From positions 1 through 28,953 of the IMG/VR virus record IMGVR_UViG_3300031638_000013: 28,953 bases of DNA; one strand, written 5' to 3'. Position 1 is the first letter of the stretch. Each line of letters opens with the position of its first letter. The notes under the pieces are model-generated. The model was not told where the DNA came from. It was given only the letters and a program-made list of their open reading frames with translations, and made no database searches. Shown here piece by piece: positions 4,930-28,953 of this stretch. Both the position numbers and the translations under genes were made by a program. This DNA comes from a virus.

Positions 4930-5228
4930 GTTGTCACCGTTACTGTTCCAACTTGACCCAAGCACTGTATAGGTTGTAGGTTAGGGGCAACCACCAAAGG
5001 CAACCCAACGTAAACATCCAAAGGCTCTACCCTATCTGGACGAGCGTTTTGAAGTGCTTCGGGGTCCGAAACCTTACGGAAGGGTCCTAATTGAGGCTGT
5101 TTAGGCTCAAACTCGTCGGGACCTACCAAAAGCCCGTTCCATTCCTTTTTCATTAATCGGTAAGGGTAACGAAAACCCGACCTATCAGAGATTGCCCACG
5201 CCTTTTTTCCAGAAGCAAACTTAGCCAT
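4926..5228 (-). CDS. Small conserved phage structural-region protein (100 aa)
   Basis: The product begins MAKFASGKKAWAISDRSGFR and contains the segments KKEWNGLLVGPDEFEPKQPQ and RPDRVEPLDV. This pattern, a short basic N-terminus followed by a WNG-L-VG-DEFE block and RPDR, is one I recall from small proteins encoded between neck genes in marine-type phages; their function is unknown to me. ATG 5228 is immediately adjacent to the end of the 222-aa neck gene, and its stop overlaps the adaptor start. It has no membrane segment or signal peptide. It is probably a minor virion or assembly protein. Confidence 0.7.
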   Translation of the reverse strand: MAKFASGKKAWAISDRSGFRYPYRLMKKEWNGLLVGPDEFEPKQPQLGPFRKVSDPEALQNARPDRVEPLDVYVGLPLVVAPNLQPIQCLGQVGTVTVTT

Positions 5229-5896
5229 CAGCCTGACCTGTAGTAATCCAACCGGGGCACAACATTAAAGGATGAACGGTCCCTGTCCTCTATGGCCGCC
5301 CGGTCAAACTCTTCTTCGTACACGCCCTTTAACATTTCAACACGGTTTGGGGCGCGTTTTAACGCAATGTAATAAGCTAACCCCGCCGCTAAACAGGGGT
5401 AAAACCTAAAAGGTAAGTCCATAGTGTTGGTGTATATATCCGCGTCGTCCATGCGCGTTAAAGCGTCATAATAAACAACGTCGGTGCTATTGTCGGGGAC
5501 GGGCCATAACTTCAGATTAGGGGTGACCTGCCTGTCCAAGAAAAATTGATTAACGCGACCCTGGGTAGTCTTGTTTGGTATAGTAAGAAAGCCGTCTCTG
5601 CTCAAGCGCATTAACGAATAATCGGTACTGTCGCGCTTAACCACCACGGACAAAACGTCAATAACGTCGGTGCCAACAGCGTATGCGCCTGTTCCCGAAA
5701 CCATTGCAATGGTACGCTGCTTGATAGTCCATTGGTTAAGGCCACGGTTAGCCCAATCCGCCAGCAAAAGGTTCAAGGACCGCTTTGCGGATTTTAAGTC
5801 ATAACCTGTCCGAACCTCAAGTCCGCACCGTTCAAAGGCTTCTTCGACATATTCGGCAACGTCTAGTTCAAAATCTGTGCTTCCGGATGTAGCCAT
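5228..5896 (-). CDS. Neck / tail-tubular-like connector protein (222 aa)
   Basis: The 222-aa product has an N-terminal helical section (VAEYVEEAFERCGLEVRTGY, then SLNLLLADWANRG) and a beta-rich middle (VIDVLSVVVKRDSTDYSL). It ends with ALKRAPNRVEMLKGVYEEEF and DRDRSSFNVVPR. This layout, including the NLLLADWANRGLN and RFYPCLAAGLAYY blocks, resembles phage neck proteins that join the portal/adaptor to the tail, often annotated as tail tubular protein A-like. It is the first gene of the neck group after the signalling cassette and is separated from it by a 138-base gap. Function by resemblance and position, moderate confidence. Confidence 0.7.
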   Translation of the reverse strand: MATSGSTDFELDVAEYVEEAFERCGLEVRTGYDLKSAKRSLNLLLADWANRGLNQWTIKQRTIAMVSGTGAYAVGTDVIDVLSVVVKRDSTDYSLMRLSRDGFLTIPNKTTQGRVNQFFLDRQVTPNLKLWPVPDNSTDVVYYDALTRMDDADIYTNTMDLPFRFYPCLAAGLAYYIALKRAPNRVEMLKGVYEEEFDRAAIEDRDRSSFNVVPRLDYYRSG

Positions 5897-6034
5897 GGCC
5901 TGTACCTACTCTAATTTTGGCATAAAAAATAACATATTAGCCTTTTTTATCCCGCTTGTCTTGCTAATATATTTTAAAAAACCTACTTCAAGGGGAGGGC
6001 CGAAGAAAAAATAAATCACGGCTAAAACAGTAAT
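5897..6034. other. Intergenic gap between signalling cassette and neck genes
   Basis: This 138-base AT-rich stretch separates the cyclase stop from the neck-protein start. I see no open frame with a ribosome site, no convincing hairpin terminator and no clear -35/-10 pair. It is the largest gap within the late genes and the obvious place for an undetected phage promoter. Confidence 0.5.
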
Positions 6035-7798
6035 TTACACAGTATTTGAACCCCATGTATATACCCTCAAGGCGTTTTCTTTACCTTTCACTTTAATGGG
6101 TTCAAGCTCTTTTAGCAAATACCTACAATTTTGTGCGGTTTCATGTCCAATCAAAATATCTACGCCTACTTCCTTGGTGCTTGACTCATATCGTGCGGCT
6201 TCGTTAACACAGTTGCCGATTGCTGTGTAATCGAAGCGTTGGGAAGATCCCATGTTGCCTATAACTGCCCACCCACTCTGTACTCCAACCCCGATTGCTA
6301 TATCTGCCTCCATCGTTCCATTTAACGCCTTAACCCTTTCCTGTATTCGTACAGCGGCTTCAATCGCCTTATTTTCATGTTCCGGCAAGTCCAGGGGTGC
6401 CGAAAAGATCCCCATGCAAGCATCTCCAATAAACTTGTCAACCATACCACCTGCCCGCTGTATTTCCTCAACCTGAACGGTCAAGGTGGCATTCATAATT
6501 TCCGTAACCTCCTCTGGCGTTAACTTTTCGCTCATTGAGGTGAATCCGCGTAAATCAGTAAATAAAAACGTACAATACCGAGTTTCTCCCCCTAATTTAA
6601 GCAATTTTGGGTCTTTTTGTAGTAGTTTTACCTGTCTAGGGTCTAAATAATGCTCAAACTGCTTCTTAATTTGCTGTCTCAGCTTGAATTGTTGCCGGTA
6701 ATTCAGATAAAACGCCGTAGAAGCCGTTAAAAACTGTGAAACAATCGTCCAAGTAACATCGATCAAAACTCCTTTTTGTATCAAACCCATCCCCAAATAA
6801 CCTGTAGCAACTGTTATTGCTCCCGCTAACACTAATCCCCACGTTACGCCCAAAAGGTTTAATAAAACCCACACCAAAGACACCGTTACTAGAAAAATAC
6901 CCAGTTCTGCTGATAGGGAGTAATCAGGGATATAGGGACTGTTTTGCACTAGCATTGATTCAGCCAGCGCAGCTTGAATATAGTGCGGCTCTAAAAGTCC
7001 AACTGGCGTTGCGATTTGAGGCATTACCCCCGAAGCCGTTACACCCACAAAAACAAACCGCCCAGCTACATCCATTTCTTGCAATGATGTTTCATGTGGA
7101 ACAATCCAACTAATCCACTTTCTCCCTAGACTATCCGTTTTAACAGGCGGTATCCCTTTTACGGCTATTTCTTGTATGCCATTTTCATTAGTAGTAATGA
7201 TGTAAGTGCTCGAACCTGTTAAGGATTTTAACACCTGCGTACCGAATGAAGCGACCCACCCGTCAGGGCTTCTGAGGAGAAGGGGGATTCTCCTAACAAG
7301 CAAGTCTAATTCGGTCGGTGCTACGGCAATCCCTTGTAGCGTGTTTTCTGTTAGCTGACTAATATTTTGCTTTACCCCTGAAGATAATATTCCACCAATA
7401 TCCTGACCTCTGAGGACAATGCCTGTTGGTGCGGGGAATACACCCTTCCCATCCTCAAACATGGCTATGACAGAACCGCCTTGCCCCAAAGCAGTTGCAA
7501 AATCTCCATCACCGCCTAGCCTGTCAGGTTGTGGGAAAGAAATGACCCACCCAACGCCTGTTGCTCCTTTCGCTAATAGTTCGTTATGTATCTCGGCTAA
7601 ACGCTGGCGTGGAAAAGGGTATCCACCCTCTCTTTCAACATCTTCTTCAGTGATGCTAAGAACTGTAAAGTTTCCTGAAGGTTCTTGCGGTGCTACAAAA
7701 GCGTCAAATGTCTTTAGTTTTAGTACCTCAGTCGGCATTGACCGCATGAGCAGAGGGATAGCCAGTACCGCAAGTATTATAAATATAAGTCTTTTCAC
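6035..7798 (-). CDS. Membrane adenylate cyclase with periplasmic CHASE2 sensor
   Basis: The 587-aa product has an N-terminal membrane segment (about residues 4-20), a periplasmic CHASE2-like region (about 21-290), three further membrane helices (about 297-317, 319-340, 345-366), a short linker and a class III cyclase domain (about 405-580). The cyclase keeps its key residues: metal-binding Asp415 in FTDLRGFT and Asp459 in KFIGDA, purine-specifying Lys455 and Thr525 (DYTAIG), and transition-state Asn532 and Arg536 in VNEAAR. It should therefore be active and ATP-specific by family rules, making cAMP. The GTG start at 7798 overlaps the FecR stop (TAGTG), so the two are coupled. FecR/CHASE2-cyclase neighbours are known to me in bacteria; inside a phage structural operon this is unusual. 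It is full length, with no frameshift. Confidence 0.92.
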   Translation of the reverse strand: MKRLIFIILAVLAIPLLMRSMPTEVLKLKTFDAFVAPQEPSGNFTVLSITEEDVEREGGYPFPRQRLAEIHNELLAKGATGVGWVISFPQPDRLGGDGDFATALGQGGSVIAMFEDGKGVFPAPTGIVLRGQDIGGILSSGVKQNISQLTENTLQGIAVAPTELDLLVRRIPLLLRSPDGWVASFGTQVLKSLTGSSTYIITTNENGIQEIAVKGIPPVKTDSLGRKWISWIVPHETSLQEMDVAGRFVFVGVTASGVMPQIATPVGLLEPHYIQAALAESMLVQNSPYIPDYSLSAELGIFLVTVSLVWVLLNLLGVTWGLVLAGAITVATGYLGMGLIQKGVLIDVTWTIVSQFLTASTAFYLNYRQQFKLRQQIKKQFEHYLDPRQVKLLQKDPKLLKLGGETRYCTFLFTDLRGFTSMSEKLTPEEVTEIMNATLTVQVEEIQRAGGMVDKFIGDACMGIFSAPLDLPEHENKAIEAAVRIQERVKALNGTMEADIAIGVGVQSGWAVIGNMGSSQRFDYTAIGNCVNEAARYESSTKEVGVDILIGHETAQNCRYLLKELEPIKVKGKENALRVYTWGSNTV

Positions 7799-8907
7799 TA
7801 GCTGCCCTGGCTGATCTTTATGGAACTGTTGCTTCCACCGTTGATGGTTATTACTCTGGATACACCGTCTTGCGTAAAAATGATGGTATAACTGCCTGAC
7901 TTATCTATGTCTACCCTGGTTGAATCGCTTACATTTCTTTGCAGAGTTAATATTTCTCCAGTCATAAACGTGGTAATTTGAGTATCTTTGTCTTGTCCAA
8001 ACGCTGTACCAACAATTTTTACCGCCCCTGCGTCTTGCAGAGCATCTTCTTGTTTTGCTACTTGCAATGCGTCTAACACATTTAGCATGTCTTCTAAGAA
8101 ATTTACATCAAGATAATTAATATCTAGCTCGGTAAACTCCCAGTTTTCTTCTTCCAGCAAATCCTCGTCCAAGTAATCAATGTCTAAATCATTGAAATCC
8201 AGCAGGTTGGCTGACTGTGCTGTTTGTTGCGCTATAAACTCTACTTTCTCTTTTGGTGGCGAAACAATGAGCATATTGTCAATAAGTTCTAGTGTTAGGT
8301 CTAAGATGACAGGAGCAGACGGAGCAGACTCAAATACTGATACCGTAGTCGCTTCATAAGGCTTATTCAAAAGAACACTGCCCATTGCTGTGACCACCTC
8401 AATTTCACCGCTAGACAACCCTAGCGCATCCGGTAACAGGATAATGAGTGACCTGCCAAGCTCATCTACTGTCGCAGTGAAATCCGTTCCTCGTATTGCA
8501 ATATTAGCCGTGGGCGTTCTAAGGCTTATGTTTTGCTTGGCAATTCTATTAAGATTACCTGTAATAAATCGGGCTGTTCCTAACCCAAAAGTAAGAGCCA
8601 TCTTGGATTTAGAAGGGTCAGGATCATAGATGTATTCGTCTATTGTTAGCTGAGAATGCTCGGTCAGACTGACAGTGGAATCATCAAGAAAAGTAATAGC
8701 CATTCTGCCATTAGTTGTAATGGCTTCGTCATTGCTCTGTATAGCAAAGTTCACCGCCGCATTATACGGTTGGTCACGAACTACCTGCGCTGTGCCGTTT
8801 AGCTCTGTCACACCGCCAATATCAACAGCTTGTGCTAGTACCTTGGTCGTCTTGAACGACACACACAGTACCATTGCTACCAATGCTAATAATTTTAAGC
8901 CAGTCAT
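7798..8907 (-). CDS. FecR-domain periplasmic protein with acidic repeat region
   Basis: The 369-aa product has a cleavable-type signal peptide (residues 1 to about 26, ending VLAQA), then a FecR domain (about 60-155). The family landmarks are visible: FLDDSTVSLTEHSQLTIDEY, LTFGLGTARFITG and TPTANIAIRGTDFT. Residues 235-275 hold an acidic leucine-rich double repeat (DIDYLDEDLLEE and DINYLDVNFLED). The C-terminal 75 residues look beta-rich. FecR domains bind or relay signals in the periplasm; here the partner is probably the CHASE2 cyclase encoded directly downstream. ATG 8907 lies inside the curlin-like gene (86-base overlap) and is needed for the signal peptide. I see no Shine-Dalgarno, so translation probably depends on the upstream gene. 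Confidence 0.88.
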   Translation of the reverse strand: MTGLKLLALVAMVLCVSFKTTKVLAQAVDIGGVTELNGTAQVVRDQPYNAAVNFAIQSNDEAITTNGRMAITFLDDSTVSLTEHSQLTIDEYIYDPDPSKSKMALTFGLGTARFITGNLNRIAKQNISLRTPTANIAIRGTDFTATVDELGRSLIILLPDALGLSSGEIEVVTAMGSVLLNKPYEATTVSVFESAPSAPVILDLTLELIDNMLIVSPPKEKVEFIAQQTAQSANLLDFNDLDIDYLDEDLLEEENWEFTELDINYLDVNFLEDMLNVLDALQVAKQEDALQDAGAVKIVGTAFGQDKDTQITTFMTGEILTLQRNVSDSTRVDIDKSGSYTIIFTQDGVSRVITINGGSNSSIKISQGS

Positions 8908-9544
8908 TATTTAATGTGCTTTGTTGGTCTACAGTGAACGTTCTGGAACTTCCTGTATGGTCGAGGTAAAAATAGCCACCCGCAGATGCAGTTACCCCAT
9001 CGCCATCATAGGTCAGCGTGTTGTCTGAGCCATCAATATCCACATAGTTTGTAGCGCCGTCTATGTCAATATTAGACGTTAAAGTGTTGTTAGATCCTTG
9101 GATTATCCAGTCCAGATCAAGCGTTGCCGCTAACGCACTGACAGCCTGATTTAATACCACAGTATTACCGCTACCGGATACCTCTATATTTTGGTCAGAA
9201 CTATCCGCACCGTATGTATTCGTGGGGTCTACCTGAATGGTAAAGGTGTTAGTGTCACCCGTGAACTCATAAAATCCCGTAAAAGAATCAGCCCAAATAT
9301 CACCTAGAAAGATGTTGGTATCGCCAATCTGGTTTATATCAAGTGTCATTGTGCCACCATCAAGATCAAATGCAGTCGGTGTTCCCGCAACAGCGTCTGT
9401 GCCACCAATAATATTGGATTGACCTAATTGTTCTAGGTCTATATTTGCCGTTGCGCCGGACTGGTCAACAAAAATTTCATTATCCGCAGCGTGGGTGTTA
9501 CCGCAAAGCATGATTACACAAAATAAATTAATTAATTTCTTCAT
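8822..9544 (-). CDS. Secreted curlin-like repeat protein (putative amyloid-type subunit)
   Basis: The 240-aa product has a signal peptide (to about residue 20, ending THAA) and a mature part with spaced curlin-like motifs: VDQSGATANIDLEQLGQSN (27-44) and INQIGDTN (70-77). Weaker GxxN units follow around 95-99, 124-127, 150-153 and 172-175. In curlins, Q-x-G-x-x-N repeats build the beta-helical amyloid core. It is acidic, almost free of Lys/Arg after the signal, and ends with two cysteines (228 and 240). It follows csgG with a 17-base overlap, so it is the likely export substrate. It is longer and more degenerate than CsgA. It could be an amyloid fibre subunit, a CsgB-like nucleator or a non-amyloid beta-solenoid. 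Confidence 0.75.
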   Translation of the reverse strand: MKKLINLFCVIMLCGNTHAADNEIFVDQSGATANIDLEQLGQSNIIGGTDAVAGTPTAFDLDGGTMTLDINQIGDTNIFLGDIWADSFTGFYEFTGDTNTFTIQVDPTNTYGADSSDQNIEVSGSGNTVVLNQAVSALAATLDLDWIIQGSNNTLTSNIDIDGATNYVDIDGSDNTLTYDGDGVTASAGGYFYLDHTGSSRTFTVDQQSTLNNDWLKIISIGSNGTVCVVQDDQGTSTSC

Positions 9545-10349
9545 GTGTCCAAAACCCTCTATCGTAGCCGATATTTATCAATTCTAAGACTGCTCCCTCA
9601 ATGGCGATTATTAAAGAAACGGTCGTTGACTCGTTGCGAGAATTTCCTAATTCTATTTCAATGAGATCCCTTCCTCGCGCTATAAACTTAAAAACATCTT
9701 CGGATTGACCATAACTAAAGATGGTTTTCTGGCTCAACACTTCTACAAGAATTTCACCCGTAGCAACCGACACCATCCGTAACGATACGGTCACGTTATC
9801 TTCTCGGTACTGGATGCTTCTTCCTATTCCGAAGTACCTAGCACCAATTCCACCCGTAGTCAAATTACTATCATACGCTATTACCGCGCCTTCAAGCAAT
9901 ACTCCGGCAAATAGCAGTGGCATCAAGGCTTTTTTGCCCTCATCACTCTGAAACTGTTCACGCGCTGACCGGATCAACTGCCTCTCTTTAGTAAGGTTAT
10001 CCAACCCCACGCGCTCCACGACTCTAAAAAACTTCCCGTGACTGGCGTGTTTTAATGCTCTAATCAGAAGGGAAGAAGGTTGTTGGGTCAATGCTGTGGA
10101 AAACAAAGCAAATTCTGAGTTACTTTTGCGCTGACCTGTCTGGTCTGTAAAAGAATTGGGATAAACAGCAACAATAGGCATTACTGCGGGAGCCTGAACA
10201 CCAAGCAAGGCCTTGGACTGAAGTTCCTCTATTTTTACTACATTGTTTTCTTCAAACCTTCGGCTATAGGTATCTTCAAATTGATCAAATATTGAGCAAC
10301 TAGAAAGTAAAAGAGCCGATAGGCAAAGTAATTTCAGTCGTATTTCCAT
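9528..10349 (-). CDS. csgG: CsgG-like outer-membrane curli secretion lipoprotein
   Basis: The protein (273 aa from ATG 10349; an in-frame TTG at 10358 is possible) has a lipoprotein signal ending LLLSSC, lipidated at Cys18. It then follows CsgG closely: AVYPNSFTDQTGQ, RALKHASHGKFFRVVERVGL, the ERQLIRSAREQ helix, EGAVIAYDSN, the near-invariant GGIGARYFGIG, VSVATGEIL, and a C-terminal INIGYDRGFW like the INDGIDRGLW of E. coli. CsgG forms a nonameric outer-membrane pore for unfolded curlin export. In the constriction loop the Phe equivalent to E. coli Phe56 is kept, but the positions of Tyr51 and Asn55 appear changed. The start lies inside csgF. Confidence 0.93.
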   Translation of the reverse strand: MEIRLKLLCLSALLLSSCSIFDQFEDTYSRRFEENNVVKIEELQSKALLGVQAPAVMPIVAVYPNSFTDQTGQRKSNSEFALFSTALTQQPSSLLIRALKHASHGKFFRVVERVGLDNLTKERQLIRSAREQFQSDEGKKALMPLLFAGVLLEGAVIAYDSNLTTGGIGARYFGIGRSIQYREDNVTVSLRMVSVATGEILVEVLSQKTIFSYGQSEDVFKFIARGRDLIEIELGNSRNESTTVSLIIAIEGAVLELINIGYDRGFWTHEEIN

Positions 10350-10776
10350 CTGGGTCAATTATCATTAAAGTTATAAAATCACCATTGCTGGTGTAGGTAA
10401 TTGTATTTCCTTCTAGCTCTATTTCACCGTGTGTGCTTGGCGTTTCGCCAAACAGGTTATCGACTAACTGCCTGGATAACTGCGCGTATACACGAGATTC
10501 GAGATTACGAATAAATCTGGCGAGTGTGGTATTGTTCTTATCTCTTTCAATTTCTTCCTGCAATGCTTCAATTTCTTCTTTAATAGACGCTTCTCTATTA
10601 AATTCTTGGTTTTCTATGGTTAAATAATGACTTGAAGTGCCAATTCCGCTAAAAGAGGGTGATTTAAACTTATGCGTAATAGCGTCTGGGAAAGCTATTG
10701 GTGAGAAAAGCACAGCATATATAGCGGTGACTGTTGCAGCTTTACTCCACCCCTTTATTTTTCTTTTCTTCCTCAT
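10300..10776 (-). CDS. csgF: CsgF-like curli assembly factor
   Basis: The 158-aa product has a basic N-terminus and a hydrophobic signal (residues 12 to about 28). The mature start, ITHKFKSPSFSGIGTSSHYL, matches the E. coli CsgF N-terminal segment that inserts into the CsgG pore (pattern F-x-x-P-x-F-x-G). A helical region (60-108, coiled-coil-like) and a C-terminal beta section (DFITLMIIDPDGNTTEITLP) follow, as in CsgF. In E. coli CsgF couples secretion to nucleation at the cell surface. It overlaps the previous membrane-protein gene by 35 bases and csgG by about 50. It is about 20 residues longer than E. coli CsgF, mostly in the central helix. Confidence 0.85.
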   Translation of the reverse strand: MRKKRKIKGWSKAATVTAIYAVLFSPIAFPDAITHKFKSPSFSGIGTSSHYLTIENQEFNREASIKEEIEALQEEIERDKNNTTLARFIRNLESRVYAQLSRQLVDNLFGETPSTHGEIELEGNTITYTSNGDFITLMIIDPDGNTTEITLPIGSFTF

Positions 10777-11005
10777 TCTGACCGCGCACCCCCAGCACCG
10801 TGTTGACCTTCTCTTGCAATCTTATCATGTCCTGATCTAATAATCTAAGCTGGTCGGTTAGCCGTATAATGGTGGTTTTCATGTCCTGTACAGCAGGATC
10901 AATTATAGTGGTAATCGTTTGCCACACGAAATAAACGAAATACCCAAGACCAACTACCATGATTACCGGAAAGCCAAACTCTGCAACCAGTTGTGCTATG
11001 TCCAC
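10742..11005 (-). CDS. Single-span membrane protein with coiled-coil tail, paralogue of its neighbour (87 aa)
   Basis: The product has one membrane helix (about residues 12-32, VIMVVGLGYFVYFVW) and then a charged helical tail (VQDMKTTIIRLTDQLRLLDQ) ending in EEEKKNKG. It aligns without gaps over 68 residues to the protein encoded just upstream, sharing E-x-G-x-P, GYF and DMIR. The GTG start at 11005 overlaps the previous stop as TAGTG. The shape, short N-terminus, one helix and coiled cytoplasmic tail, resembles BhlA/UviB-type holin-like proteins, but this is only topology. Its place directly before csgF suggests a link to the outer-membrane pore, or it may be a lysis gene. Confidence 0.75.
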   Translation of the reverse strand: MDIAQLVAEFGFPVIMVVGLGYFVYFVWQTITTIIDPAVQDMKTTIIRLTDQLRLLDQDMIRLQEKVNTVLGVRGQNEEEKKNKGVE

Positions 11006-11304
11006 TAATCCCGCCTTGCGTCTATCTTCCCATCTTCGACGAAATTCTCTGCTCTGGCAATTCGCTGTAAATCTGGTGAAATATTTAGTGCTCTAGAGAC
11101 AGAGGTATCTATGCGGATCATGTCGTTGTTCATAATCGAGGCTCTGGTGATAAGCATTTTTGTAATGCCTTGTATGGTATTAATTTCACTCACTAACCCG
11201 CCCATAAGCTGCTTCATGACTAAAAAAATAAAATAGCCCATGATAAGACCACTGGCAATAGGTATACCTAGTTCAGAAATTAGGTTAAAGGCTTCCAACG
11301 CCAA
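11005..11304 (-). CDS. Single-span membrane protein, first of a duplicated pair (99 aa)
   Basis: The frame opens with a TTG codon at 11304, four bases after AAGGCG; no in-frame ATG lies before the membrane helix, so TTG is the likely start. The product has one membrane helix (about 13-33, with GLIMGYFIFLVM) and a helical tail (INTIQGITKMLITRA, NNDMIRIDTSVSRAL), plus a charged C-terminus ending DARRD. It is a paralogue of the 87-aa protein that follows. It begins 18 bases after a decoration-like protein gene and opens the curli/signalling cassette. Possible roles are a holin-like pore or a membrane anchor for the cassette; neither is proven by the sequence. Confidence 0.7.
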   Translation of the reverse strand: MALEAFNLISELGIPIASGLIMGYFIFLVMKQLMGGLVSEINTIQGITKMLITRASIMNNDMIRIDTSVSRALNISPDLQRIARAENFVEDGKIDARRD

Positions 11305-11322: not shown

Positions 11323-11937
11323 TTATGCATGAAATACTGTGAGTGTTAAAAATGTAGACACAGTATATTGGATGTATATCCCAGCACTAAATACTACGCC
11401 TTCTTCGGGAATTACTACATCGCGTGTTGCATCAGCATCGCCTACAGAACTTAACCCCATAATACTTGTTCCAGACGGAGAAGTATTTAAAAAATCAACA
11501 GTTCCCGCCGTAGCTGTACTTGTTAGATAAATACCTTTTAATCGACTTCTACCTGCAAATATCACATCTGCGGCGGAACCGTTTACTCCTGCTGAAACAT
11601 TTCCAGCGGGATTGCCGACCGCTGAAATACCAGAAATAGTTAAAAAGTATTTACTTCCAGTAGCGGTTCCCGCATTAGCTCCAGTGATTGACTCAGTTTG
11701 AGCGTCACCGTTCACATCAGTACCCGTCACCGTAAAAGATTTCGCAGCGTCATTACCCGCAGATAGGATAGTCACTAACCTTCCGTGACTAAGCGCAACA
11801 GCACCTCCAGAAGCTAACGCCCCCCCTATTACAAGGGCTGCATTGTTTCCAACAGCGGCGGCTACTGATATACCATCTGCGTCTAAGGCCACTGTATCGG
11901 CAGTAATTGTAACTGCGATTACATCTGAACTAGCCAT
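11323..11937 (-). CDS. Putative capsid decoration or minor head protein (204 aa)
   Basis: The product begins MASSDVIAVTITADTVALDA and is very rich in Ala, Gly, Thr, Ser and Val, with few charged residues, as in beta-sandwich decoration or fibrous head proteins. The first half repeats short Ala/Gly/Val-rich strands (NNAALVIGGALASGGAVALS); the end has IYIQYTVSTFLTLTVF. The start ATG 11937 is preceded by GGGAG at a good distance. It is the second gene behind a promoter and lies downstream of the major capsid and a similar gene. No domain is recognised with certainty; a head-surface role is inferred from composition and position. Confidence 0.6.
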   Translation of the reverse strand: MASSDVIAVTITADTVALDADGISVAAAVGNNAALVIGGALASGGAVALSHGRLVTILSAGNDAAKSFTVTGTDVNGDAQTESITGANAGTATGSKYFLTISGISAVGNPAGNVSAGVNGSAADVIFAGRSRLKGIYLTSTATAGTVDFLNTSPSGTSIMGLSSVGDADATRDVVIPEEGVVFSAGIYIQYTVSTFLTLTVFHA

Positions 11938-23910: not shown

Positions 23911-24500
23911 TATCGATATCTAAAATGAGCGGCAAACTGGAAGGCATCCCCGCAATTAATACCAATACACTATCAAATAAATTTTGCATAAAACAGAATG
24001 CTAGGACTGATAATTCTATCTGTAAAGATTGCTATTCGGTGGCAATGCTTACAACGTTTAGAAAAAATGCAGTACCAGCGTTTCAACGCAATTCTGTAGC
24101 AATATCAGAGAAAATTATACATCCGGACGGGTTGCCCGTTGTCAATGCCGCTTATTTTCGCTTTTCAGGTCACGGTGAAATAATTAATAACAATCATTTC
24201 ATAAACTTGATCAATATAGCTGTAAAAAACCCGCGCACAAATTTTGCGTTATGGACGAAAAGGATCGATATTGTTAACAAAGCATTAAAGGATTATAAAA
24301 AACCTAAAAACCTTATCTTGGTTTATTCTAATCCACTGACAGACAGAATTATAACCGTGCCTAAAGGCTTTGATAAGGTGTTCAATAATGTATCAAGTGA
24401 TAATGGTACAAATTGTCACGGTAAATGCATTGATTGCCTAAAATGCTATAAATTCAGTAAATCCCACAAAAACAACGTCATAATTGAGAAGATCAAATAA
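23907..24500 (+). CDS. Gp88-family Cys-rich phage protein
   Basis: The 197-aa product resembles the actinophage 'gene product 88' family: MSGKLEGIPAINTNTLSNKF, a Cys cluster C27-x11-C39-x2-C42 followed by Y, the central FRFSGHGEIINNNHFINLIN, then ALWTKRIDIVNKAL, KPKNLILVYSNPL and FDKVFN. A second cluster, C170-x3-C174-x2-C177-x2-C180, closes the protein. Seven cysteines in two clusters suggest an iron-sulfur or zinc site. The family is common in phages and plasmids, but I know of no proven function. ATG 23907 overlaps the previous stop. Confidence 0.75.
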   Translation: MISISKMSGKLEGIPAINTNTLSNKFCIKQNARTDNSICKDCYSVAMLTTFRKNAVPAFQRNSVAISEKIIHPDGLPVVNAAYFRFSGHGEIINNNHFINLINIAVKNPRTNFALWTKRIDIVNKALKDYKKPKNLILVYSNPLTDRIITVPKGFDKVFNNVSSDNGTNCHGKCIDCLKCYKFSKSHKNNVIIEKIK

Positions 24501-24501
24501 T

Positions 24502-24597
24502 ATGCAATCCAATAAACAAGAATTAATCGGCTATTTTTGGCTGATATTGTCCGCAATACTAGCTGGAAGTATGTTTTTCTATTCACTACCCCTATAA
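24502..24597 (+). CDS. Tiny membrane protein (31 aa)
   Basis: The frame ATG 24502 to TAA 24597 encodes MQSNKQELIGYFWLILSAIL followed by AGSMFFYSLPL, one hydrophobic helix with a short polar N-terminus. It begins two bases after the Gp88-like stop and is followed by a normal 22-base gap with a ribosome site for the next gene. The upstream AG-rich stretch (GAGAAG, ten bases before) is a weak ribosome site. Position and membrane character support translation, but a protein this short cannot be certain. Confidence 0.45.
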   Translation: MQSNKQELIGYFWLILSAILAGSMFFYSLPL

Positions 24598-24619
24598 CCC
24601 TAAACTAAGAGGTGAAATT

Positions 24620-24817
24620 ATGAATAAATGCGATATATGCAACGCACCCGCTAAACTGCGCGAAACATTAGCAGGTCTAAATTCTTGTGATGAATGCTTT
24701 ATAGAAATATCGCCTCTTCATGTTAGCCAAGAGGATAAAGATTTTAAGCGATATGTAGACGATCTTCGCAAAATCGATGATTCATCTTTTACAGGTATTA
24801 CTAACATAAAACTATAA
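24620..24817 (+). CDS. Small zinc-ribbon-like protein (65 aa)
   Basis: The product begins MNKCDICNAPAKLRETLAGL and then NSCDECF. The two C-x2-C pairs (C4/C7 and C23/C26) form a likely four-Cys zinc site. The rest is acidic and helical (EDKDFKRYVDDLRKIDD). GAGGTG nine bases before ATG 24620 is a good ribosome site. It is one of several short genes in this rightward cluster. The function is unknown; small zinc ribbons in phages often bind DNA or host proteins. Confidence 0.65.
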   Translation: MNKCDICNAPAKLRETLAGLNSCDECFIEISPLHVSQEDKDFKRYVDDLRKIDDSSFTGITNIKL

Positions 24818-24840
24818 CCCACAAACTAGAGGTAATTATT

Positions 24841-25071
24841 ATGAACATAGGTGAAATATACATACAAAGTCATTCAGACGTTGACATATATGTTATGCCA
24901 ACAAAGTTGATGAAAAACGGGTCATATTATGGCCTGATGTTTCATGACTGGCATACTGGCAGATTTGGCGGTAAAGCTAAAAAAGGATCATTGCGTGATA
25001 TGTATCCCGCGCCTTCTTTGTCTCTTAATACGCCACAACAAGTAATAAATAAACTTAATGTGGGGTTATGA
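24841..25071 (+). CDS. Unknown small protein (76 aa)
   Basis: The product MNIGEIYIQSHSDVDIYVMP continues with SYYGLMFHDWHTGRFGGKAK and ends in LNTPQQVINKLNVGL. It looks like a compact beta-rich fold without signal or membrane segment. GAGGT about eight bases before ATG 24841 supports translation, and its stop is immediately followed by the next start. No family is recognised. Confidence 0.6.
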   Translation: MNIGEIYIQSHSDVDIYVMPTKLMKNGSYYGLMFHDWHTGRFGGKAKKGSLRDMYPAPSLSLNTPQQVINKLNVGL

Positions 25072-28079: not shown

Positions 28080-28270
28080 GTATCCACCTCCGTATACCAG
28101 TTTAAATTTCGACTTTCACACACTTGCGCGTTGATCCAGTCCCCTGTTTGCTCCGTGAGCCACGCCACGAGTTCTTCTCGCTGTATACTGAGGTTACACT
28201 TCACCCATTCGGGGGCGTTGTCCCGTGGTTTTTTAGCCATGAGGCCGTTCACAAACACCTTTTCCGTCAT
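28055..28270 (-). CDS. Small conserved-looking phage protein (71 aa)
   Basis: The product begins MTEKVFVNGLMAKKPRDNAP, then EWVKCNLSIQREELVAWLTE and ends WYTEVDTWKPTKK. The pattern VNGL-x-x-K-x-P-x-x-AP-x-(F/W)V-x-x-x-LSI...EL...W is one I recall from short phage proteins encoded with replication or accessory genes; the function is unknown. Its start overlaps the previous stop as ATGA and its stop lies within the next gene, so the three are cotranslated. Confidence 0.65.
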   Translation of the reverse strand: MTEKVFVNGLMAKKPRDNAPEWVKCNLSIQREELVAWLTEQTGDWINAQVCESRNLNWYTEVDTWKPTKKL

Positions 28271-28575
28271 TTTTCTTCACCCTTGAAGTTTTTAGACTGC
28301 GAAGTTCCGGCGTATATCCCAAAAACGGCGGCCATTGCGCCGACTACGACGGAAACAAGCCCTGCTTGCTCAAGGTTTGGTGTTTCCAGGGTCATGAACC
28401 ACGTTACAACTTCGTACAGCAGGTAGATGTAGACAGAAACGAAGGCGCGTGGAAAGATGCGCCAGGCATCGACAGTTTTAGCCAGATGTATCCATTTATG
28501 GTAAGGATTTTCGCCAATATTGTTCGTTGTTACCTCAAGTTCGAGGTCTACTCTTTTTTTGACTGGTGCCTCCAT
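28267..28575 (-). CDS. Two-helix membrane protein, holin candidate (102 aa)
   Basis: The product has a polar N-terminus (about 40 residues), then two membrane helices: AFVSVYIYLLYEVVTWFM (about 44-62) and AGLVSVVVGAMAAVFGIYAG (about 71-90), with a short charged tail. The WRIFPRAFVSVYIYLLY and QAGLVSVVVGA blocks look like small membrane proteins that sit in lysis modules of marine-type phages, some annotated as holins. Its start lies two bases after the stop of a lipoprotein gene, another lysis-type product. It could be the holin for the M15 endolysin, though the tandem membrane proteins at 10742-11304 compete for that role. Confidence 0.65.
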   Translation of the reverse strand: MEAPVKKRVDLELEVTTNNIGENPYHKWIHLAKTVDAWRIFPRAFVSVYIYLLYEVVTWFMTLETPNLEQAGLVSVVVGAMAAVFGIYAGTSQSKNFKGEEK

Positions 28576-28577
28576 AG

Positions 28578-28953
28578 CTACTCTTCCTCTTTCGGTTCGG
28601 TCTTTCTTGTGGGATCGTTATCTCGGTAGTACTGAATAATGTTCAGGTTCTGCCTGATGTACCGACGAATATCTGCTAGGTTGTTCGCAAGATTCTCATA
28701 TGCCTGTGCGGTCAAAGAATAATATGCCACGGCGGGCGCATCACCCGCATCATAATTTTCAATATACTCACGCATAATGCTGGGGTTCAGCACAATCCAT
28801 TCAATCTCGGCTGGTGCAAGGCCCTCGGGCAACGGCGGGTGGTACATGGGTGCTGGCACAGTAATCGTGACGACTTCAACGGGGGCGACTACCGGAACGG
28901 CTGTCGAGCAACCACTAATGAGGGTAATGCTACTCAGGATAATGCTACTCAGG
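28578..28953 (-). CDS. Outer-membrane lipoprotein, spanin-like, N-terminus cut by window edge
   Basis: The frame is open through the right edge, so the true start lies outside. The visible part begins LSSIILSSITLISGC, the end of a signal peptide with lipobox ISGC. A Pro/Val-rich mature start follows (CSTAVPVVAPVEVVTITVPA, then PMYHPPLPEGLAPAEIEWIV), and then a helical tail (QAYENLANNLADIRRYIRQN) ending KTEPKEEE. A Pro-rich lipoprotein next to a membrane protein fits an o-spanin of a lysis cassette, but no matching i-spanin is seen and the helical tail is longer than usual. A truncated version starting at GTG 28859 would lose the lipobox. Confidence 0.65.
   Translation of the reverse strand, partial: LSSIILSSITLISGCSTAVPVVAPVEVVTITVPAPMYHPPLPEGLAPAEIEWIVLNPSIMREYIENYDAGDAPAVAYYSLTAQAYENLANNLADIRRYIRQNLNIIQYYRDNDPTRKTEPKEEE
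28923..28953. repeat. Imperfect 14/15-base tandem repeat at the window edge
   Basis: TAATGCTACTCAGG occurs twice (28925-28938 and 28940-28953). On the minus strand the two copies encode LSSII and LSSIT in the signal peptide of the lipoprotein. Whether more copies follow cannot be seen. Confidence 0.8.

Follow-up and report, generated by a model that had tools for sequence, protein, structure and literature searches.

A phage curli (type VIII) export module in a new genomic place, with relatives frequently located among lysis genes

Here, we analyze a seven-gene curli (type VIII secretion) module encoded by 28,953 nucleotides of marine phage DNA (IMG/VR virus record IMGVR_UViG_3300031638_000013, positions 1 to 28,953; hereafter, the window). 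The module occupies positions 6035–11304 of the minus strand; it is a phage curli module already on record, found here at a new site and in a new sub-lineage. Comparison of the window with related loci reveals a defined gene set whose order is fixed, which occurs on several phage backbones, and which often sits inside clusters of lysis genes. The reading we favor, with a probability of about 0.5, is that the module constitutes a mobile curli export machine that phages deploy late in infection and that combines a surface fibre with a sensing arm composed of FecR and a CHASE2 nucleotide cyclase.

All seven open reading frames (ORFs) named in a preliminary description of the window are present on one strand, with adjacent genes overlapping or nearly so, and Pfam supports the identities proposed there for CsgF, CsgG, FecR, and the CHASE2 cyclase. 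The first two genes encode mutually related, coiled-coil-like proteins with a single transmembrane (TM) segment. One contains 99 amino acids (11005–11304; phrog_18771, 9e-23; TM residues 12–30) and the other 87 amino acids (10742–11005; phrog_18771, 1e-24; TM near residues 6–24). CsgF (10300–10776) matches PF10614 (1.1e-13) and phrog_35372 (1e-40), and the outer-membrane export pore CsgG (9528–10358), which carries the lipobox LSSC, matches PF03783 (8e-44) and structures of E. coli CsgG (1e-43). Judged from sequence, the CsgG pore of type VIII secretion and its CsgF partner are both identified. The next gene encodes a curlin-like β-solenoid protein with a signal peptide (8822–9544) that was assigned by a family profile and an AlphaFold (AF2) model and is the likely export substrate. 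The remaining genes encode a periplasmic protein with a FecR domain (7798–8907; PF04773, 3.3e-9; phrog_37870, 1e-65) and a protein that joins a CHASE2 sensor to a class III nucleotide cyclase (6035–7798; PF05226, 8e-24; PF00211 [Guanylate_cyc], 9e-17). Six of the seven proteins match PHROG families, the exception being the curlin-like protein. The resulting order, small protein(s)-CsgF-CsgG-curlin-FecR-cyclase, is that of the published phage type VIII secretion system (T8SS) module. A scan of the window for RNA families and tRNAs found none.

The curlin-like protein was modeled as an all-β solenoid with a predicted local distance difference test (pLDDT) score of 77. Structure alignment of this model returned SufB/SufD, adhesins, and an antifreeze β-helix with Z scores of 13–18, and the profile of the phage curlin-like family matches a csgG-adjacent protein of an Amylibacter chromosome (2e-14). 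The lipobox cysteine is present in nearly all members of the aligned CsgG family. Stretches that resemble signal peptides stand at the start of CsgG, the curlin-like protein, and FecR.

Searches recovered 215 loci with module genes, which dereplication reduced to 133. The fixed order of one or two small TM genes followed by CsgF, CsgG, the curlin-like protein, FecR, and the cyclase is complete in 81 of these 133 loci, and most of the others are truncated; the earlier proposal of a dedicated phage module whose order recurs in many phages is thereby borne out. Carriers include HTVC023P-type podophages, a group with another terminase, HK97-type contigs, T4-like myophages, and siphophage-type contigs that encode a tape measure and a J-type tail fibre. 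In the CsgG tree, non-myophage phage sequences form one supported group (98/94), in keeping with the phage-specific clade that had been anticipated, and myophage sequences likewise form one (97/93). Backbone labels, which were taken from partial contigs, are strongly mixed in the tree; supported branches force at least five backbone changes in one group, four in another, and three in the siphophage group. Because labels are mixed on supported branches, the cassette moves often between backbones. Both this repeated switching and the siphophage-type carriers are new here.

We detected no bacterial DNA flanking this gene set. Within the fetched stretches of 18 alphaproteobacterial csgF/csgG loci, there were no homologues of FecR, the CHASE2 cyclase, or the small TM proteins, and a Pfam search of ten neighbours likewise revealed none. 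A bacterial origin of the whole block was rejected on the basis of these 18 loci. Seven module loci (L164–L170) lie on contigs in metagenome-assembled genomes (MAGs) labeled Maricaulis, Neomarinimicrobiota, Flavobacteriaceae, Rhodobacteraceae, and Pelagibacter; some of them also contain phage genes, and they are probably phage contigs in bacterial bins. A separate unannotated record of 1,499 bases, OR851715.1 (“Salmonella phage S.Kent 1-2-1”), encodes CsgG at 295–942 and looks like chromosomal csg DNA of Salmonella that was deposited as phage.

The neighbourhood of the module in other phages was surveyed for lysis families defined by PHROGs and Pfam: a GH24 endolysin (phrog_7, 2e-63), an i-spanin (phrog_739), an o-spanin (phrog_812), a three-TM holin (PF11351/phrog_3427), and an M15 endolysin (phrog_894). 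Counts refer to dereplicated loci that were anchored on CsgG and had at least four genes of flank; genes were called as simple ORFs, and the loci are related by descent. A lysis gene follows the module within two genes in 33 of 52 loci and within four genes in 38 of 52. Where both flanks were available, 22 of 32 loci have a lysis gene on either side. In three near-complete genomes that served as background, 12–25% of gene positions have a lysis gene no more than four genes away, and only 3–6% have one within the next two genes downstream. The CsgG-anchored dereplicated loci are same-strand in every case (71/71), and the distance between the cyclase stop codon and the lysis or small-TM gene that follows it has a median of –6 nucleotides, which indicates that overlap is typical. 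The reciprocal search, which keeps nearest relatives only, gave a similar picture. With the o-spanin of a module phage as anchor, 53 loci had 2 kb or more of upstream sequence, and in 52 of them FecR or the cyclase adjoins the o-spanin; the window’s own o-spanin retrieved 45 loci, and in most of these the module flanks it, either before or after. Lysis adjacency is not seen in the window and its near relatives, nor in two cultured myophages and a few further loci.

This tight association of module and lysis genes across several backbones is a new point. Reports tying phage curli genes to a cluster of spanin, holin, and endolysin genes were not found in the open literature, supplements apart, and the accessible main text of PMC9599517 mentions neither holin, lysozyme, endolysin, nor spanin. 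Because the module sits inside lysis genes in many related phages, its placement suggests a role in the final phase of infection.

In the window, the cassette lies between a decoration-like ORF on its left (11323–11937, minus strand; 18 nucleotides before the first module gene) and an SU10-type adaptor on its right (5228–5896, minus strand; PF24175, 5.7e-14), as the preliminary description had it. Relatives of the decoration-like ORF occupy the same place in many phages that lack the module. The major capsid protein (MCP), portal, and TerL are located further upstream of the cassette. Comparison with the cultured or sorted members HTVC023P, HTVC027P, and 023Pt_psg01 places the window on an HTVC023P-type podophage backbone (MCP identity 70–71%, TerL up to 64%). 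Because the GC content of the window is about 46%, its host is probably not SAR11. A promoter-like motif of 27 base pairs lies between the cyclase and the adaptor (5934–5960, minus strand); it is exact in the window and L002, near-identical in L003–L005, and its core also occurs in L095, whereas none would be expected by chance. The same cassette order and both junctions recur in four contigs from other metagenomes (L002–L005), and the left junction in another (L084). A mis-assembly between phage and host DNA was rejected because identical junctions recur in other metagenomes.

The cassette is absent between MCP and adaptor in 63 of the 67 relatives that hold both genes. At this position, the module-less relatives have head genes and short accessory genes over 1.1–3.8 kb, among them small membrane proteins of family c5. 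Because they carry other accessory genes there, the site is an accessory-gene hot spot. HK97-type siphophage contigs (L007, L008, L197, and L208) have the module at the equivalent place between head and connector genes. The window’s lineage and one siphophage group fit the description of the module as embedded in a structural operon; in many lineages, the module and holin-like, spanin, and endolysin genes are intertwined.

At the far end of the window lie an o-spanin-like lipoprotein (28578–28952, minus strand), matched by the oSpanin profile from family c7 (phrog_812, 2e-11), and the c11 membrane protein (28267–28575, minus strand), a holin candidate by profile match whose family corresponds to phrog_10198 and has no assigned function. 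Relatives of the c11 protein are often found directly upstream of the module elsewhere. Between TerL and these lysis genes, positions 24001–25000 have a local GC fraction of 0.35 and contain small plus-strand genes in a row.

The predicted cyclase retains the catalytic set, including the metal-binding aspartates (D415 and D459), the transition-state residues (N532 and R536), and the adenine-recognizing lysine (K455); by these residues, it fits a class III nucleotide cyclase. Its base-recognition position is N529, where nearly all phage relatives have aspartate and bacterial cyclases are variable; this substitution might alter the choice of nucleotide. The cyclase is split into two ORFs in L029, L166, L203, and L229, which could reflect assembly frameshifts or real breaks. 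FecR starts with its N-terminal FecR domain, continues through a linker of low confidence, and ends in a C-terminal stretch whose curlin-like repeats contain Q/N. Its C-terminus (7798–7900, minus strand) resembles a curlin repeat (..QDGxSxxIxINGGxxSxIxITQ), and it is tempting to speculate that FecR might dock on the fibre through this stretch.

PMC9599517 labels the first position of the module a histidine kinase. No kinase domain was detected in the 99- and 87-amino acid proteins of the window by Pfam at E values up to 1, and an alignment of the small TM family revealed no conserved histidine. These observations cast doubt on the published label. The 87-amino acid protein has a faint match (0.04) to the holin family phrog_4898.

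We propose the following model. The module would be made late in infection, when CsgG and CsgF form a channel in the outer membrane. The curlin-like protein would pass through this channel onto the outside of the infected cell and assemble there into a fibre. Periplasmic FecR and the inner-membrane CHASE2 cyclase may act as a joint sensor that converts the state of the fibre or envelope into a cyclic nucleotide signal, while the small membrane proteins would act in the inner membrane as holin-like or scaffold components rather than as histidine kinases. The benefit to the phage is the most uncertain step; we favor the possibility that the fibre alters contacts between the dying cell and its neighbours, through aggregation or retention, as virions are released.

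Several observations weigh against this model. In the window itself, no lysis gene was recognised within four genes of the module; the nearest, the o-spanin, is approximately 17 kb from the cassette, and the lysis adjacency seen elsewhere could be a hot-spot effect. Alignment with E. coli CsgG indicates that the window’s CsgG retains the equivalent of F56 and lacks those of Y51 and N55, three residues of the constriction. The curlin-like protein has no Pfam match, including to the curlin repeat PF07012, its model yielded no significant match in Foldseek, and a regular-expression count of curlin motifs barely exceeds that of shuffled sequences. The predicted structure of FecR is too poor for use (pLDDT of 48). 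CsgE (PF10627) was found in none of 19 module records, with a positive E. coli control. Because alphaproteobacterial csg modules likewise lack CsgE, according to PMC9599517, this protein does not define the type VIII family as a whole. Clumping was not observed in cultures with Melnitz (PMC9004378). Finally, a gene for a cyclic nucleotide-binding protein was found in none of 33 module phage records and in only 2 of 60 SAR11-family genomes. Class III cyclases were likewise found in only 2 of these 60, and for receptor and cyclase alike, one of the two positive genomes is a MAG with a phage contig in it. Given these counts, a SAR11 host would leave the cyclase with no known receptor; the signal may be read by a different type of receptor, or the phages may infect other hosts.

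The lysis genes invite a reading in which the fibre, FecR, and the cyclase sense the exterior or a superinfecting phage and tune holin, spanin, and endolysin, with an effect like lysis inhibition in T4. Interlocking with lysis genes through short overlaps in many lineages, conservation of the cyclase’s catalytic residues, and the holin-like small proteins that adjoin the module are all consistent with such a timing device. We nevertheless consider it unlikely, inasmuch as the window, HTVC008M, and Melnitz have no recognised lysis gene within four genes and a cAMP receptor is missing from the 33 phage records and nearly so from SAR11 (2/60). There is a similarly small chance that curli export, the FecR-CHASE2 cyclase, and the lysis genes constitute one functional unit in which an outer-membrane fibre is built and sensed and a cyclic nucleotide, acting via a receptor, decides or shapes bursting.

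Alternatively, the module may be selfish or conditionally useful cargo, for example for uptake of nutrients through the pore, that lands in hot spots near lysis and head-connector genes. Relatives of the window carry other accessory genes at its insertion site, and the module uses several different sites. Mere landing in hot spots fits poorly with a rate of lysis adjacency far above background and with coupling down to overlaps of a few bases, and we regard this explanation as doubtful. A slightly dimmer prospect is that CsgG functions as a gated or ungated outer-membrane pore for lysis or release, regulated by the other genes. This idea was put forward for Melnitz, for which a pinholin or secretin role was proposed (PMC9004378), and it agrees with the neighbouring lysis genes and with the lack of a CsgE gate in 19 records. 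A mere pore needs no substrate, however, and the curlin-like protein stays with CsgG in nearly every untruncated locus; moreover, endolysin and spanins are already encoded beside the module.

Superinfection exclusion, in which a surface fibre or pore blocks rival phages, was proposed in PMC9599517 and suits cargo that spreads between phage backbones. Such a block would be needed early, whereas the module’s association with lysis and head genes points to late expression, and we find this role rather improbable. An appendage of the virion built from the curlin-like protein, which the preliminary description had entertained and which would suit the cassette’s place between head and neck genes in the window, is very improbable indeed, as this location is not conserved and as signal peptides, together with a lipoprotein pore in the outer membrane, indicate that products leave the cell instead of joining cytoplasmic assembly of virions.

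The phage curli module was reported in 2020, and its function has gone without a test since. That several unrelated phage types have it interlocked with genes for holin-like proteins, spanins, and endolysins raises a direct question: is the module expressed with lysis genes, and does it act at lysis? The present analysis also extends the module’s known range to siphophage-type phages.

Bacterial curli systems (csgDEFG-csgBAC of E. coli and csgFG of alphaproteobacteria) encode clear homologues of the window’s CsgG and CsgF, and in Amylibacter a curlin-type gene adjoins csgG, as in the phage module. The fetched stretches of the 18 bacterial loci differ in that FecR, the CHASE2 cyclase, and the small TM proteins have no homologue there, and the 19 phage records differ in lacking CsgE. 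Another related system is the curli operon of pelagimyophages, in which CsgF and CsgG were described by Zaragoza-Solas in 2020 (PMC7029224). HTVC008M and Melnitz (PMC7029224 and PMC9004378) share with the window CsgF, CsgG, the curlin-like protein, FecR, the cyclase, and two small TM genes; the occurrence of cassette genes in these records already limits the novelty once claimed for the set. Their operon differs in having an extra curlin-like gene after FecR and a CsgG that is just 39–43% identical; in the fetched stretch, it has no recognised lysis gene within four genes, which is also true of the window. The full module, HK-CsgF-CsgG-CsgA/B-FecR-(CsgA/B)-AC, was described by Wittmers in 2022 (PMC9599517) in HTVC023P-type podophages and myophages. 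That paper also reports metatranscripts of the module and its transfer between phage families. The combination of a substrate with FecR and a CHASE2 cyclase, which had seemed new when the window was first described, was thus already published. The accessible part of that paper describes neither a link to lysis genes nor siphophage carriers. The window shares the genes, order, and HTVC023P-type podophage lineage of the Wittmers T8SS module and departs from it, as far as that text extends, in the small proteins without a kinase domain, in a lineage of about 46% GC, and in a site between head and adaptor genes.

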